From Acaryochloridaceae cyanobacterium SU_2_1 (GTDB taxonomy: Bacteria; Cyanobacteriota; Cyanobacteriia; Thermosynechococcales; Thermosynechococcaceae): DNA of 62,203 bases. The stretch lies in contig JAAUUW010000001.1 in the NCBI GenBank assembly GCA_012030735.1, forward strand, positions 1 to 62,203. Reading direction: 5' to 3'. The notes beneath the pieces are model-generated. The model saw only the letters and a program-made list of their open reading frames with translations. It was not told the origin of the DNA and made no database searches. This document shows, piece after piece, positions 16,386 through 22,398 of the stretch. The position numbers and the translations under genes were made by a program. The number at the start of each line of letters is the position of its first letter. Position 1 is the stretch's first letter.

Positions 16386-18501
16386 ATGGCTATTATGATG
16401 CAACCAGCTAATACTCCGTTGATCTTAATTATCGATGATAACCTTACGAATCTAGAGGTGATGTGCGAAACATTGAGTGACGCTGGGTACGAAGTTGCGA
16501 TCGCACGTCTGGGGAACGAGCAATTCGGCAAATCCAACACAGCTCTCCCGACCTGATCCTTCTCGATATCATGATGCCTGAAATGGATGGCTATGAAACC
16601 TGCAAGATCATTAAAAATAATTCCATATCGGCTTCGATTCCGATCATCTTTATGACAGCCTTAGCGGATACTAGCAATAAGGTTAAGGGTTTTGAGCTAG
16701 GTGCAGTTGACTATATTACAAAACCCTTTCAAGAACCAGAACTACTGGCCAGAGTGAGAACACACCTCAATTTGAGACAAGCAGAACTGCAGTTGCGCCA
16801 AAGCGAAGCTCAGATGGAAAATATCCTTAACTCCTTAGAAGAAGTTGTATGGTCTGCAACCCTTGATTTTTCCCAGTTTATATTTCTGAATCCTGCCGTA
16901 AAAACATTTTTGGCTGCTCCGCCGATGAACTGATTGCTTCACCCCACCTCTGGTTCGACATGGTGCATCCCGAAGATAAAACCCGCCTGAAGCAAGCGCT
17001 TCAGCGACTAAGTGCACAATCTGCCATTGGCCTTGAATATAGAATTATTGACAGAACTGGAAACATAAGATGGCTTAAAATTCGAGCCCAAAGAAATAGT
17101 GCTTTGGCTAAGAACCAAGCGGATCGAATCGATGGAGTTGTACATGATATCAGCGATCAAAAGCGAGTTGAATATCATTTATCTTACGAAGCCTATCATG
17201 ACAACTTAACAGCATTAGCCAATCGCAATAGCTTCATTCGCCAAAGCAACCAGCTTCTACACGCCTTCAAAGAAAATCCAAGCGAAAGATTCGCGGTATT
17301 GTTTATCGACTTAGATCGGTTTAAACGGATTAACGATAGCCTTGGCCACTATGTTGGCGATCAACTATTACAACAAGTCGCCAAGCGGCTACAACAATGC
17401 CTGCGTCCCTTTGATCTCATTGCTCGAATTGGAGGAGATGAGTTCGCCATCCTACTGAAAAATCTTTCACAGCCGGAAGATCCCATCATTGTTGCAAAAC
17501 GTATTCACTCCCAACTGACCGAAGCAATTCGGATTGAAAATCAAATCTTTTTTGTATCTGTAAGTATAGGCATTGTAATTGCTAGTTTCCGCCACGCAAG
17601 TGCTGAAGAACTTCTACGAGATGCTGATATCGCCATGTATCAGGCCAAAAAAGAGGGAAAAGCTCGTTATCAACTCTTTAATGAGTCAATGCATATTGAT
17701 AGCGTCCGCCGACTCGATCTTGAACGCGATTTAAGGATAGCACTGAATAACCAAGAAATTACACTCCATTATCAGCCCATTGTAAATCTAGAAACTCAGG
17801 TTGTCACCGGATTCGAAGCCCTAGCTCGATGGACACACCCCCAAAAAGGATTTATTTCTCCGGCAGACTTCATTCCTATCGCTGAGGAAAGTGGCCTAAT
17901 AGTAGAATTAGGAGAGCAGATACTCCGGCAAGCATGCCATCAATTAAAACAATGGAACAGTTGTTTCCCAGAAGTATCGACTTATACCATGAGTGTCAAC
18001 CTCTCTGGCAAGCAACTTCAAAGTCTTAGTTTTATTGATACTCTGGATGAAATTTTAAATGCAAATAATATTTCTGGGCATCAATTAAAGCTGGAAATAA
18101 CCGAAAGTCTACTCATGGATAACCATGACTCTATATTAACCCTATTAAACAGCCTTTTAAAACGGGATATTACCCTTAGCCTAGATGATTTTGGAACAGG
18201 ATATTCTTCATTGAGCTATCTTCATCGTTTTCCCCTGAGTGAACTCAAGATTGATCGTTCTTTTGTTAGCCGTATTGAAGACGATATCCAAAGTCAAGAA
18301 ATTGTCAAAACTATCTTAAATTTAGCTAATACTCTCAACATGAGTGTTGTTGCCGAAGGAGTAGAGACGCTAGGACAACTGAAGTACCTCAAAATTCTAA
18401 AATGTAATAAAGCACAAGGGTACTTATTCTATAAGCCCTTATCCAAAACTGATGTTGATAAATTACTTGAAGATCACGCTAACCATTGGATGAGTGCATG
18501 A
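16386..18501 (+). CDS. Response regulator with PAS, GGDEF and EAL domains (two frameshifts)
   Basis: Bifunctional c-di-GMP enzyme under phosphorelay control. REC domain with phospho-Asp in DLILLDIMMPEMDG and ITKPF (residues 1-130), PAS domain with VHPEDKTRL (about 145-260), GGDEF domain with intact GGDEF and an RPFD inhibitory site five residues before it, then EAL with intact EALARW, DDFGTGYSS and KIDRSF. Both catalytic halves look active. A base is missing near 16504 (VAIA-TSGERAIRQI) and another near 16905-16911 in an A/T run (KT-FGCSADELIASP). Restored length is 705 residues. It lies 67 bases before a histidine kinase on the same strand, a likely partner. Confidence 0.88.
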
Positions 18502-18568
18502 TCAACCTATTGACAAAAATATTATTGAGGAAAAATACTAAAATAAGCACCAAAGATTGGATGTAAAT

Positions 18569-20247
18569 ATGCCTCGCAAAACTATAGATAAAGATGTTTT
18601 TGCTGAACGTTTATTGCAAGGAGTTTCAGAGGCAACACGTTCTCTTTTGATGATTCGAAACTATAAAGAATCGATTCAGTTAGCCCTTGAAATTTTAGGC
18701 GACGCAACTCTGGTTGACCGTGTTTATGTATTTAGACTTCATGCTCATTCTACGACCAATATCTTAGTTGCAAGTCAAAATTGGGAATGGGCTAAGGATA
18801 AAATGCTTGCTGAGATTAACAATCTTAACTTACAAAATCTTCCCTTTTTAGACATTTTCCCTCGTTGGCATCAAAAATTATCAGTGGGACAGTCTATTTC
18901 TGGAATGTTGATAATTTTCCTGAACAAGAACAAGAGATTCTCCAGCCACAAAACATTCTTTCGATTGTAGTTGCACCCATCATGATCCAAGATCATTGTT
19001 GGGGGTTTATGGGGTTTGATGACTGCCAAAATGGTCATGATTGGACCCGAAGTGAGGTCGCCGTTTTAGAAGCGACCGCCCATAGCTTTGGCGGAGCAAT
19101 TGCTCGTTTTGAGGCCGAAGAAAGTCTTAAAGAAACAAATAAGATCCTCACAAGGCAAGCTGAGGAACTACTAGCAGCTAAAGAGGTGGCTACTCAAGCG
19201 AATCGCGCTAAGAGCATGTTTTTGGCAAGTATGAGTCATGAGCTACGAACCCCTCTTAACGGAATCTTAGGTTATAGCCAGATTCTTCAGCGGTCCTCTG
19301 TCCCAGAATCAAACGAAGCGCGAGGTATTGAGGTTATTCAACAATGTGCAAACCATCTGCTTACTCTGATTAACGACATCCTAGACTTTACCAAAACTGA
19401 AGCTGATCAACTCACTATTTCACCTGTCTCAGTAAATTTATCTACATTTCTGAATGAAACTGCTGATATATGCCAAATACAATCAAATCAAAAAAAGATT
19501 ATTTTTAGAAGAGACTTTTCGCCAGAATTACCAGAAAAAGTCTCTGTAGATGCCCAACATCTTCGCCAAGTCCTCTTGAATCTTTTGAGTAATGCTATTA
19601 AGTTTACAGATGCTGGTCAAGTTACCTTATCGGTGATTGCAGAGAAAAACCTGTCAACTTCAGATACAAAGCATTTGGATAGTTCCGTTGCCAGCATTTA
19701 TTTTGCTGTTATCGATACTGGGGTTGGCATATCATCTCAAGACATAGAAAGAATCTTCAATGCCTTCGAACAAGTTGGCGATTTAGGCCGTAAAGCAGAT
19801 GGAACAGGATTAGGACTCTATATTAGTCAGCGAATAATATCTGCAATGGGCAGCTCTATTCAGGTTGAATCCCATGTGAAATCTGGCAGTATCTTTTCCT
19901 TTGTCCTCGATTTACCCATCATCGGCAACCAGCCGAGATCGCTTAATACTCTGGCAGGAGAAGCCTGCTTAATTGATGTCACAGAAAATAGCGTAGAGGT
20001 TAGTTTTTCTGATTCTGATCCATATTCAGCAGAAATAAATATACCCCCCACTGATACTTTAAAGTATTGTTTGCAGTTGGCTCAGTCAGGACGATTAAAA
20101 AAGTTGATTCAGTATGTTGAGTTAGCCTCTCAAATGCAACCAGAAAATGCCCAATTTCTGCAAAAAATCATTGACTTGGCATTAAAATATGATGTTGACG
20201 AAATTGAAGAATTGCTGAGTTTACACCTGAAGCCATCGCATTTATAG
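18569..20247 (+). CDS. GAF-domain sensor histidine kinase (one frameshift)
   Basis: Soluble hybrid-less histidine kinase of 559 residues after correction. N-terminal GAF-like domain (about 20-175), a coiled-coil linker, HisKA with the phospho-His in [17 protein letters not shown], and HATPase_c with N box [13 protein letters not shown]1 DTGVGI and G2 GTGLGLY. A tail of about 110 residues follows and has no REC or HPt signature that I can see. One A is missing at 18904-18905 (needed for [13 protein letters not shown]). ATG 18569 is chosen over the in-frame TTG at 18557. No membrane segments, so it probably senses a cytoplasmic signal; likely works with the preceding response regulator. Confidence 0.86.
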
Positions 20248-20461: not shown

Positions 20462-20665
20462 ATGAATAAAGAAAACAAGGCCTGTGGTAATTGTTATCAC
20501 TTTGATGACCTGCACAATATGTGCCAAAAATTTACCGTTAGATATCCGTTTGGAAAGGTCTATCTGACGCGCTACCAAGACTCACAGATTTGTCGCACAG
20601 AGTATCTTCCCAGACCGATGACTTGGGACAGTAACCTTTCAGTCAACGTAGAGCTAAAAAACTAG
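20462..20665 (+). CDS. Small Cys-rich protein
   Basis: 67 residues beginning MNKENKACGNCYHFDDL. Four cysteines (CGNC pair, then C at about 21 and 44) suggest a small metal-binding or redox module, but the last spacing is loose. The gene starts at an ATG with a weak purine stretch before it and its AT content matches the AT-rich flank. It lies 214 bases after the kinase and ends 27 bases before a convergent gene. No family recognised. Confidence 0.5.
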   Translation: MNKENKACGNCYHFDDLHNMCQKFTVRYPFGKVYLTRYQDSQICRTEYLPRPMTWDSNLSVNVELKN

Positions 20666-20691: not shown

Positions 20692-22398
20692 CTAGTTGCC
20701 AGTTAAGCGATAAGCTCTTTGTTTTTTGGAATTTGATGAATTCATCATAGGTGTGAGATAGAGGCTCAGTCGATGTCGCCGTTTTGAACGTAAAATACTG
20801 TTGAGAGAAACAGTGCTACGACTTCCCCAAACGGAAATATTTTTCTCTGCTAGCCCTAGGTTGTCGATAGTGACTGCGACAGCGGCATCAGAAATGATTC
20901 TTATGACCGTGGGAAGGGAGATAAAAGCAACGGGTGAATCAACTTCAATACTCATCTCATAATGGCCCTTGGCAACCCTTGTAAAGTCATGAAATGAATA
21001 GGTATCCTTGCCACATTGTTTATTCAGGTAAACGCTGCGGATATTTTCGACTTGTTGGTCACTGAATGTTTTAGGGAAAAGATCTGACTCTTCTCTATAG
21101 TAAGGCTGAAAACTTTGAATGGTGGGTTCCCAATAGGGATCTTCAGATGTATAGGCGAGTCCTATCTCTTGGCTGTCATCTACTATCAGGGTAGCTGGTT
21201 CTGAATAGCCATTGAAGTGATTTCCAATAGAACGACAATAGGCACCGTTATTGGGTAACAATAGCAAATCGCCTTCCTTTACCCCCCTTAGATCTGTTTC
21301 AGGAAGCAGCACGTCTCCCGCAAAGCAAAGAGGGCCAGCAACACTATCCAGCCCTGATTTGGGGAGCACTGTTCCATCAGCACGAAATATCTCTTGGGCA
21401 AACCCAGCCAGAGTCACCTTCAAAAGTTGATCAGAGCCAACATCTACAATTGCCCAGCCCTTGCCTCGGGTCGATTTACGGGTTACAACTCTTGTCAATA
21501 GTGCAGTAGCGTTACCAAACAAGGCATTCCCTGGTTCCATTTTATAGGTAAATTCAGGCCGAAATTTGCTTTTTAAAGCATCGCCTAATTCAGTAATGGA
21601 AGGGAACTGATCTTCCTCCTGAGTTGGGATGCCTAGTCCCCCTCCCAGGTTGAGATCTGTAATGATGTGATGGGTTAAGGCGTGGATCGTATCGCATAAT
21701 TCATGTAAGACATCTAGGCTTTCTTGAAACACCTCAACATTGTCCATTTGAGTTCCCACATGAACATGCAAGCCAGAGAATGGTAACTTTGTGGCGTTAA
21801 GAAAGGGTAGAACCTCCTCTGTGGGGAGTCCAAATTGACTTGTTAGGCTACCATGCGAAGTATGTTTTTGGTAATCTGCTTTAGCCCCATAGCTGTTATA
21901 GAGCGGGGGGTTAACTCGCAGAAATAATTTGCCAGAAAAGGGGATATTGCCTAACTGTGCTTCGAGGGCTGTCACCTTTGATATCGAGTCGATGATGACA
22001 TTGCCACCATCCTGAAGTAACGTGACGGCTAAGCTGAGATCGGGTGCTGGAGAATAGTAACTCAATTGAGAGGTTGGTATGCCAGCGAGACGAGCTAATT
22101 GAATCTCGCGAGATGATGCACAGTCAGCACCACATCCTTGCTCAGCAAGTATTTTGAAGGTTGCAAGGCATGGATTGACCTTAACGGGGAAATAGATATA
22201 TTTATTCTCTCCCAGAATGTTTTTAAATGCCTGGAGATTGCTGAGGATTTGAGCTCGATTTGTGATGTAAAGCGGTGTTGAATATTGACGTGCAATTTCA
22301 GCTAAATCAAGCTGCTGAAACCAATAAGACTTGGGAGGGCTAGATTGAAATTCTGTCTCTAGGTTGGCCTGATGACTTTTGGTTATTTGATTGATCAT
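20692..22398 (-). CDS. PLP-dependent decarboxylase (DapDC/OrnDC family) with extra C-terminal domain
   Basis: 568 residues of the alanine-racemase-fold decarboxylase family. PLP lysine lies in FPVKVNP (about residue 73), followed by HVHVGTQ, glycine loop LGGGLGIP, CFAGDVL holding the cross-subunit cysteine and GAYCRSIGNHFNG near the end of the core. Two signatures deviate: EPGN instead of EPGR and CFAGD instead of CESxD, so lysine synthesis from diaminopimelate is doubtful. After about residue 430 a further 130-140 residues (HYEMSIEVDSPVAFISLP and onward) have no counterpart in ordinary decarboxylases; a hot-dog-like fold is only a guess. Substrate unknown. Confidence 0.75.
   Translation of the reverse strand: MINQITKSHQANLETEFQSSPPKSYWFQQLDLAEIARQYSTPLYITNRAQILSNLQAFKNILGENKYIYFPVKVNPCLATFKILAEQGCGADCASSREIQLARLAGIPTSQLSYYSPAPDLSLAVTLLQDGGNVIIDSISKVTALEAQLGNIPFSGKLFLRVNPPLYNSYGAKADYQKHTSHGSLTSQFGLPTEEVLPFLNATKLPFSGLHVHVGTQMDNVEVFQESLDVLHELCDTIHALTHHIITDLNLGGGLGIPTQEEDQFPSITELGDALKSKFRPEFTYKMEPGNALFGNATALLTRVVTRKSTRGKGWAIVDVGSDQLLKVTLAGFAQEIFRADGTVLPKSGLDSVAGPLCFAGDVLLPETDLRGVKEGDLLLLPNNGAYCRSIGNHFNGYSEPATLIVDDSQEIGLAYTSEDPYWEPTIQSFQPYYREESDLFPKTFSDQQVENIRSVYLNKQCGKDTYSFHDFTRVAKGHYEMSIEVDSPVAFISLPTVIRIISDAAVAVTIDNLGLAEKNISVWGSRSTVSLNSILRSKRRHRLSLYLTPMMNSSNSKKQRAYRLTGN

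Follow-up and report, generated by a model that had tools for sequence, protein, structure and literature searches.

A rare DapDC-like PLP decarboxylase of cyanobacteria with a private C-terminal domain and a linked Cys-rich protein gene, probably not a diaminopimelate decarboxylase

The decarboxylase gene and its neighbors

The window, a stretch of 62,203 nucleotides from Acaryochloridaceae cyanobacterium SU_2_1, carries on its reverse strand a reading frame for 568 aa whose limits, strand, and ATG start were given correctly in an earlier note on this DNA. The gene, its parts, and the features next to it are as follows.

16398..18501 (+): gene for a response regulator with PAS, GGDEF, and EAL domains; the frame changes twice in the window; belongs to a cassette common to four of five carriers
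18557..20247 (+): GAF-HisKA-HATPase histidine kinase gene; one frameshift in the window; belongs to the cassette common to four of five carriers
20462..20665 (+): gene for a small Cys-rich protein of 67 aa (CGNCYHFDDLHNMCQKF...RTEYLPRP); convergent with the decarboxylase gene, which it adjoins in all five carriers
20692..22398 (-): two-domain PLP-dependent decarboxylase (alanine-racemase-fold, DapDC-like); 568 aa as read, ATG start
20692..20727 (-): frame-shifted C-terminus (KKQRAYRLTGN), where the relatives have SKNxELIAYWQLGEGxGxGNxLxV
20728..21066 (-): conserved C-terminal domain, residues 445-557; dN/dS ~0.24-0.33; private to the family
21067..21168 (-): variable charged linker, residues 411-444; dN/dS ~0.3-0.65; length differs by 4 aa among members
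21169..22323 (-): catalytic core, residues 26-410, with PLP Lys73, His213, GGG252-254, EPGN288-291, the Lys327/Ala331 helix, CFAGD358-362, and GAY385-387

The core matches the Pfam profiles PF02784 (E 2.4e-27) and PF00278 (E 2.4e-11), and in a search of PDB sequences the nearest solved structures are DapDCs [2P3E, E 5.7e-37; 1TWI, E 3.6e-35]. These matches bear out the fold and the PLP lysine that had been assigned to the protein, those of the DapDC/OrnDC family. The best PDB match spans residues 27-409, and PDB matches end by about residue 420. The residues beyond the core, first put at about 130, number about 150.

The C-terminus of the window protein requires comment. Compared with the four relatives, whose sequences finish with ELIAYWQLGEGxGxGNxLxV, the window protein is read in a different frame over its last ~10 residues (KQRAYRLTGN); hence, the natural protein would be about 585 aa long. 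An A-run is longer by one A, and a single base is added soon after (gcttaactgg vs gcctactgg); the two changes lead to an early stop and disrupt the C-terminal ~20 residues. The linked kinase and response regulator-GGDEF-EAL genes are also broken in the window, and they are intact in three other carriers (L027, L029, and L030, named below). Moreover, the housekeeping lysA of the window genome (G000 contig C91, L061:617-1984) is interrupted at an A-run that is one A too short (CAAAAACTG). This break is probably an assembly error, which serves as a warning about the other frameshifts in this genome and makes assembly error a likely cause of some of those in the window. The window copy of the decarboxylase gene may thus be decaying or mis-assembled.

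Distribution and phylogeny

In 58 related genomes, a search turned up two close relatives, at 83% and 66% identity, together with ordinary LysA. For the two-domain architecture a profile search had been proposed; using a tail-specific profile, we found it in five of ~390 cyanobacterial genomes, window included, while a sixth match was weak and contained internal stops. Two more cyanobacterial samplings yielded no further tail relatives. Across ~85,000 species, a scan brought up only four relatives, which match the other four carriers by coordinates: MS004 bin-004_47 (L027), Lyngbya confervoides (L028), Tildeniella torsiva (L029), and Nodosilinea LEGE 07298 (L030). The gene is rare among cyanobacteria, and its carriers are taxonomically scattered.

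In a maximum-likelihood tree of the cores, the five members form a branch of their own (support 100/100, length ~3.6-3.8). Cyanobacterial LysA is a separate group (100/100), and the FigC-like, NspC, and BtrK/SbnH/PEP1-like groups also stand apart. The tree supports the family branch itself, not its place among the DapDC-like groups. A second core tree left out the row LysA_L012, which was in the wrong reading frame.

Other cyanobacterial paralogs of the DapDC type were encountered. In two LysA-like proteins [L066:369-1670(+) and L067:363-1745(+)], the PLP Lys aligns with Val (FASVTNGN) and CESGD with TYSRD, and these proteins are candidate PLP-free pseudoenzymes of the DapDC fold. Another DapDC-like paralog [L062:421-1878(-) and L068:3-1205(+)] has EPGD, lacks the active-site Cys motif (TGNINEALD), and occupies its own long branch.

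Active-site and substrate-pocket residues

The full residue set of alanine-racemase-fold PLP decarboxylases is kept in the window protein: PLP Lys73 (in VKVNP), His213 (in HVGT), GGG 252-254, Glu288 of EPG, Cys358, and the Tyr of GAY 385-387. Two departures from the DapDC signatures had been reported, EPGR to EPGN (residues 288-291) and CESxD to CFAGD (residues 358-362). Both are confirmed, and neither varies among the five known members, the CES Glu being replaced by Phe359 in each. EPGR is present in every cyanobacterial LysA matched by the same scan and CESGD in every one aligned, so that EPGN and CFAGD are not due to chance. DapDCs with both substitutions were also looked for, a finding that the earlier note would have counted against its own reading, and none was seen among the LysAs matched or aligned.

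Further changes in the pocket had escaped the earlier note. The Arg and the Tyr of the DapDC specificity helix, both carried by the aligned LysAs, are Lys327 and Ala331 in all five members, and the helix reads QLLKVTLAG in the family where LysA has ...xRPxxY.... We take the CESxD Glu and the helix Arg and Tyr to be the positions that hold the distal end of DAP in DapDC structures, with the Arg and Tyr presumably clamping its distal carboxylate.

Both altered motifs had been proposed to contact the substrate. For the EPGR Arg this needs correction, as it is part of the PLP-phosphate pocket (PMC12599289); the change to EPGN therefore concerns the cofactor more than the substrate, and loss of the Arg could weaken PLP binding. 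In CASDC, the equivalent of this Arg is Glu and the phosphate is contacted via the backbone, and the Cys motif of the solved carboxyspermidine decarboxylase is CLAGD (PMC11866407). Two cyanobacterial NspC proteins carry EPGG/CLSGD and EPGS/CLAGD. Hence, the paired substitutions have precedent in working enzymes.

Comparison with LysA

The family shares with LysA (TIGR01048) the alanine-racemase-fold barrel and beta-domain, the PLP Lys, His, GGG, EPG Glu, Cys, and GAY residues, and 25-30% identity over residues 26-410. It differs by lacking the EPGR Arg, the CES Glu, and the helix Arg and Tyr, by having QFG where LysA has KFG, and by its additional 150-aa tail and separate branch. The difference is also seen in profile scores. 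Against the TIGR01048 lysA equivalog cut-off of 297.9 bits, the window protein scores 221.7 and two relatives 229.9 and 215.3, so that all three members fall under it, whereas the genuine cyanobacterial LysA tested reaches 483.7 bits. A separate housekeeping LysA is present in all three carriers checked (the window genome, G009, and G012), and its frame is uninterrupted in the latter two. The score below the cut-off, the long branch, the lost pocket residues, and the separate lysA together argue that the decarboxylase is probably not a DAP decarboxylase, and the proposal of a new, non-DAP substrate is well supported by the same evidence.

The C-terminal domain

Residues 445-557 carry the signature VAFISxPTVxRIxSDAAVAVxID. 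Their dN/dS (0.24-0.33) lies above that of the core (0.15-0.18), while the linker at residues 411-444 varies from ~0.3 to 0.65. The hydropathy-charge balance of this segment is that of a folded protein, and the linker differs in this respect. By these measures the tail is a constrained segment of folded-type composition, its fold itself being only putative; the disorder that would have spoken against a second domain did not appear.

The tail has no significant match in Pfam, NCBIfam, PHROGs, or PDB sequences and none in plasmid sequences, and of 17 stretches in IMG/VR that fit a pattern, none was confirmed. PADLOC gave no match with the full-length decarboxylase and the 67-aa protein. Structure prediction and a structural search, proposed earlier as a check, were carried out and brought little: the AlphaFold models, built on an alignment of five similar sequences, have a pLDDT of 45 (full-length) and 44 (tail-only), and Foldseek with a tail model of this quality (pLDDT 44-45) returned nothing below E 0.5. 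Models of this pLDDT display a weak alpha-beta-beta-alpha-beta-beta pattern. When the tail was compared with FcoT and 4HBT by hhalign, the result was no better than with shuffled columns; the positive control, FcoT against 4HBT, also failed, which leaves a hotdog reading of the tail unproven rather than disproved. Our guess is that the tail most likely aids substrate binding or delivery, or sets the oligomer.

PF10862 is essentially absent from a cyanobacterial sample, though one instance occurs in Halotia. A Halotia branconii plasmid carries an isonitrile-lipopeptide-like cluster (L079:4796-18375; ligase, TauD, FcoT, ACP, NRPS), which lies near a TonB-dependent siderophore receptor.

A small partner gene and an apparently mobile module

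The decarboxylase gene had been described as isolated. No biosynthetic neighbors name a pathway. The isolation is not complete, since the conserved gene for the 67-aa protein, with its motif C-x2-C-x-H...C...C, adjoins it convergently in all five carriers. Among 291 Cyanobacteria, good matches to this protein occur only in the five carriers; the additional matches are one divergent copy in G012 and one weak match with internal stops. The GAF-HisKA kinase and receiver-PAS-GGDEF-EAL genes lie nearby in four of the five carriers, while cobalamin genes are neighbors in the window alone. Carrier protein, ligase, or NRPS/PKS genes were not seen in the neighborhoods listed for the five loci.

The divergent second copy of the Cys-rich protein (CGTCRHYDDIHNMC) in G012 (contig C80, L124:6400-7100) has no decarboxylase nearby and is flanked by a histidine kinase gene on one side and a GGDEF-EAL gene on the other. 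This placement hints at a possible association of the small protein with the signaling genes.

The gene of L027, whose host belongs to the same family as the window organism, is 92% identical to those of L029 and L030, from another family, and 82% identical to that of the window. Transposase-like genes flank L027 and L030. The GC content of the module is 42-44%, about 10 points lower than that of the adjoining cob genes in the window (~53%). The gene relationships that contradict host taxonomy, the transposase-like flanks, and the low GC content point to horizontal transfer of the decarboxylase gene, apparently within a mobile module.

Proposed function and alternatives

We consider it rather likely that the family is a catalytically competent, non-housekeeping, non-DAP PLP decarboxylase of DapDC-like lineage, which has a private tail and moves with the 67-aa gene. 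Judged from sequence, the enzyme would most likely remove the alpha-carboxyl group of some amino acid that is not meso-DAP, in a PLP-dependent reaction. Given the conserved residues, the amino group of the substrate would displace Lys73 from PLP, Glu288 would hold the PLP pyridine nitrogen, and the alpha-carboxylate would depart as CO2. Cys358 would be supplied by the partner subunit of a dimer, as in the relatives. With Phe359 in place of the CES Glu, Lys327 in place of the Arg, and Ala331 in place of the Tyr, the distal clamp on meso-DAP would be gone, so the substrate would be an amino acid that does not carry the D-stereocentre of DAP at its far end. The distal group, met by Lys327, is perhaps neutral or singly anionic and possibly bulky, and the tail might act in binding, delivery, or assembly.

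This fold is known to have been diverted to other substrates, since FigC, SbnH, AcsE, MccE, BtrK, and DapDC form a clade that is not involved in polyamine synthesis (PMC7857480). FigC/FslC (N-citrylornithine decarboxylase) and the related siderophore decarboxylases share with the window family a DapDC-like lineage turned to other substrates; in contrast to it, they keep ELGR and a CMxxD motif, have no tail, and form a separate supported branch.

A bolder version adds the small protein. Here, the decarboxylase and the 67-aa Cys-rich protein, as a metal/Fe-S partner or as the substrate, would constitute a two-component system with a previously unrecognized decarboxylase activity and a new domain, regulated by the kinase and the c-di-GMP regulator and mobile between cyanobacterial families. 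We regard this extension as tentative and would rather bet against it.

The best-surviving alternative, although an unlikely one, is that the substrate is bound through a thioester to a carrier protein or CoA, as in BtrK and VinO, and that the tail is an acyl- or carrier-binding domain, for example, a hotdog. BtrK decarboxylates glutamyl-ACP (PMC7857480), its substrate being L-glutamyl-BtrI ACP, and VinO is a described precedent for the carrier-bound mode (PMC11284099). The window family shares with BtrK and SbnH the fold, QFG, and, probably, a substrate other than DAP, and with BtrK also GTQ and GPLC. The weak secondary-structure pattern of the tail is compatible with a hotdog, and to the eye the family C-terminus, AYWQLGEGxGxGNxLxV, looks like that of FcoT/SAV606. 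However, the tree joins BtrK to SbnH and a PEP1-like protein (93/97) to the exclusion of the window family, and BtrK and SbnH have ESGR/ECGR and CTPxD motifs and no such tail. The FcoT hallmark ESxYIxxTGHxNxVE is missing from the tail, the comparison with FcoT/4HBT stayed at the shuffled level, albeit with the failed control, and no carrier protein, ligase, or NRPS/PKS gene adjoins. Thus, the carrier-bound substrate suggested earlier found no positive evidence, in so far as a low-power test of the tail can tell.

A degenerating or non-enzymatic copy, be it a pseudoenzyme or a selfish gene carried along by a mobile regulatory cassette, would account for the IS neighbors and for the frameshifts that each of the three large cassette genes has in the window. 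We think it quite improbable: four intact full-length copies exist in other genomes, core and tail are under strong purifying selection, and all catalytic residues are conserved.

Slimmer still is the chance of a carboxyspermidine/carboxynorspermidine-type or other polyamine decarboxylase converged on EPGx and C[L]AGD. The EPGE/CLAGD-type pair of the solved CASDC (PMC11866407) and the motif pairs of the two cyanobacterial NspC proteins combine, like the window family, a non-Arg residue after EPG with C[L]AGD. Yet the TIGR01047 (nspC) scores, 39-48 bits, fall far short of the cut-off at 409, the core tree places NspC on a remote branch, the specificity-helix Asp of CASDC is unmatched, and NspC has lost GAY, intact here, and has no tail.

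Least probable of all is a second, divergent DAP decarboxylase, as an isozyme or a stand-in for a damaged lysA: the nearest solved structures are DapDCs and the lysA of the window genome is frameshifted, but the CES Glu and the helix Arg and Tyr are missing, the score lies under the lysA cut-off, G009 and G012 retain an uninterrupted lysA frame, and the window genome has its lysA break at a single base of an A-run, as is typical of assembly error.

Implications

The preferred reading, a decarboxylase acting on an amino acid other than meso-DAP, has a practical side. FigC is annotated in GenBank as a DAP decarboxylase (PMC7857480), and annotation pipelines may in the same way label such genes "diaminopimelate decarboxylase" on fold similarity alone. 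If this reading is true, the family would represent another substrate diversion of the fold, equipped with a domain missing from all libraries searched here, and the tiny partner gene would offer a handle on its function.
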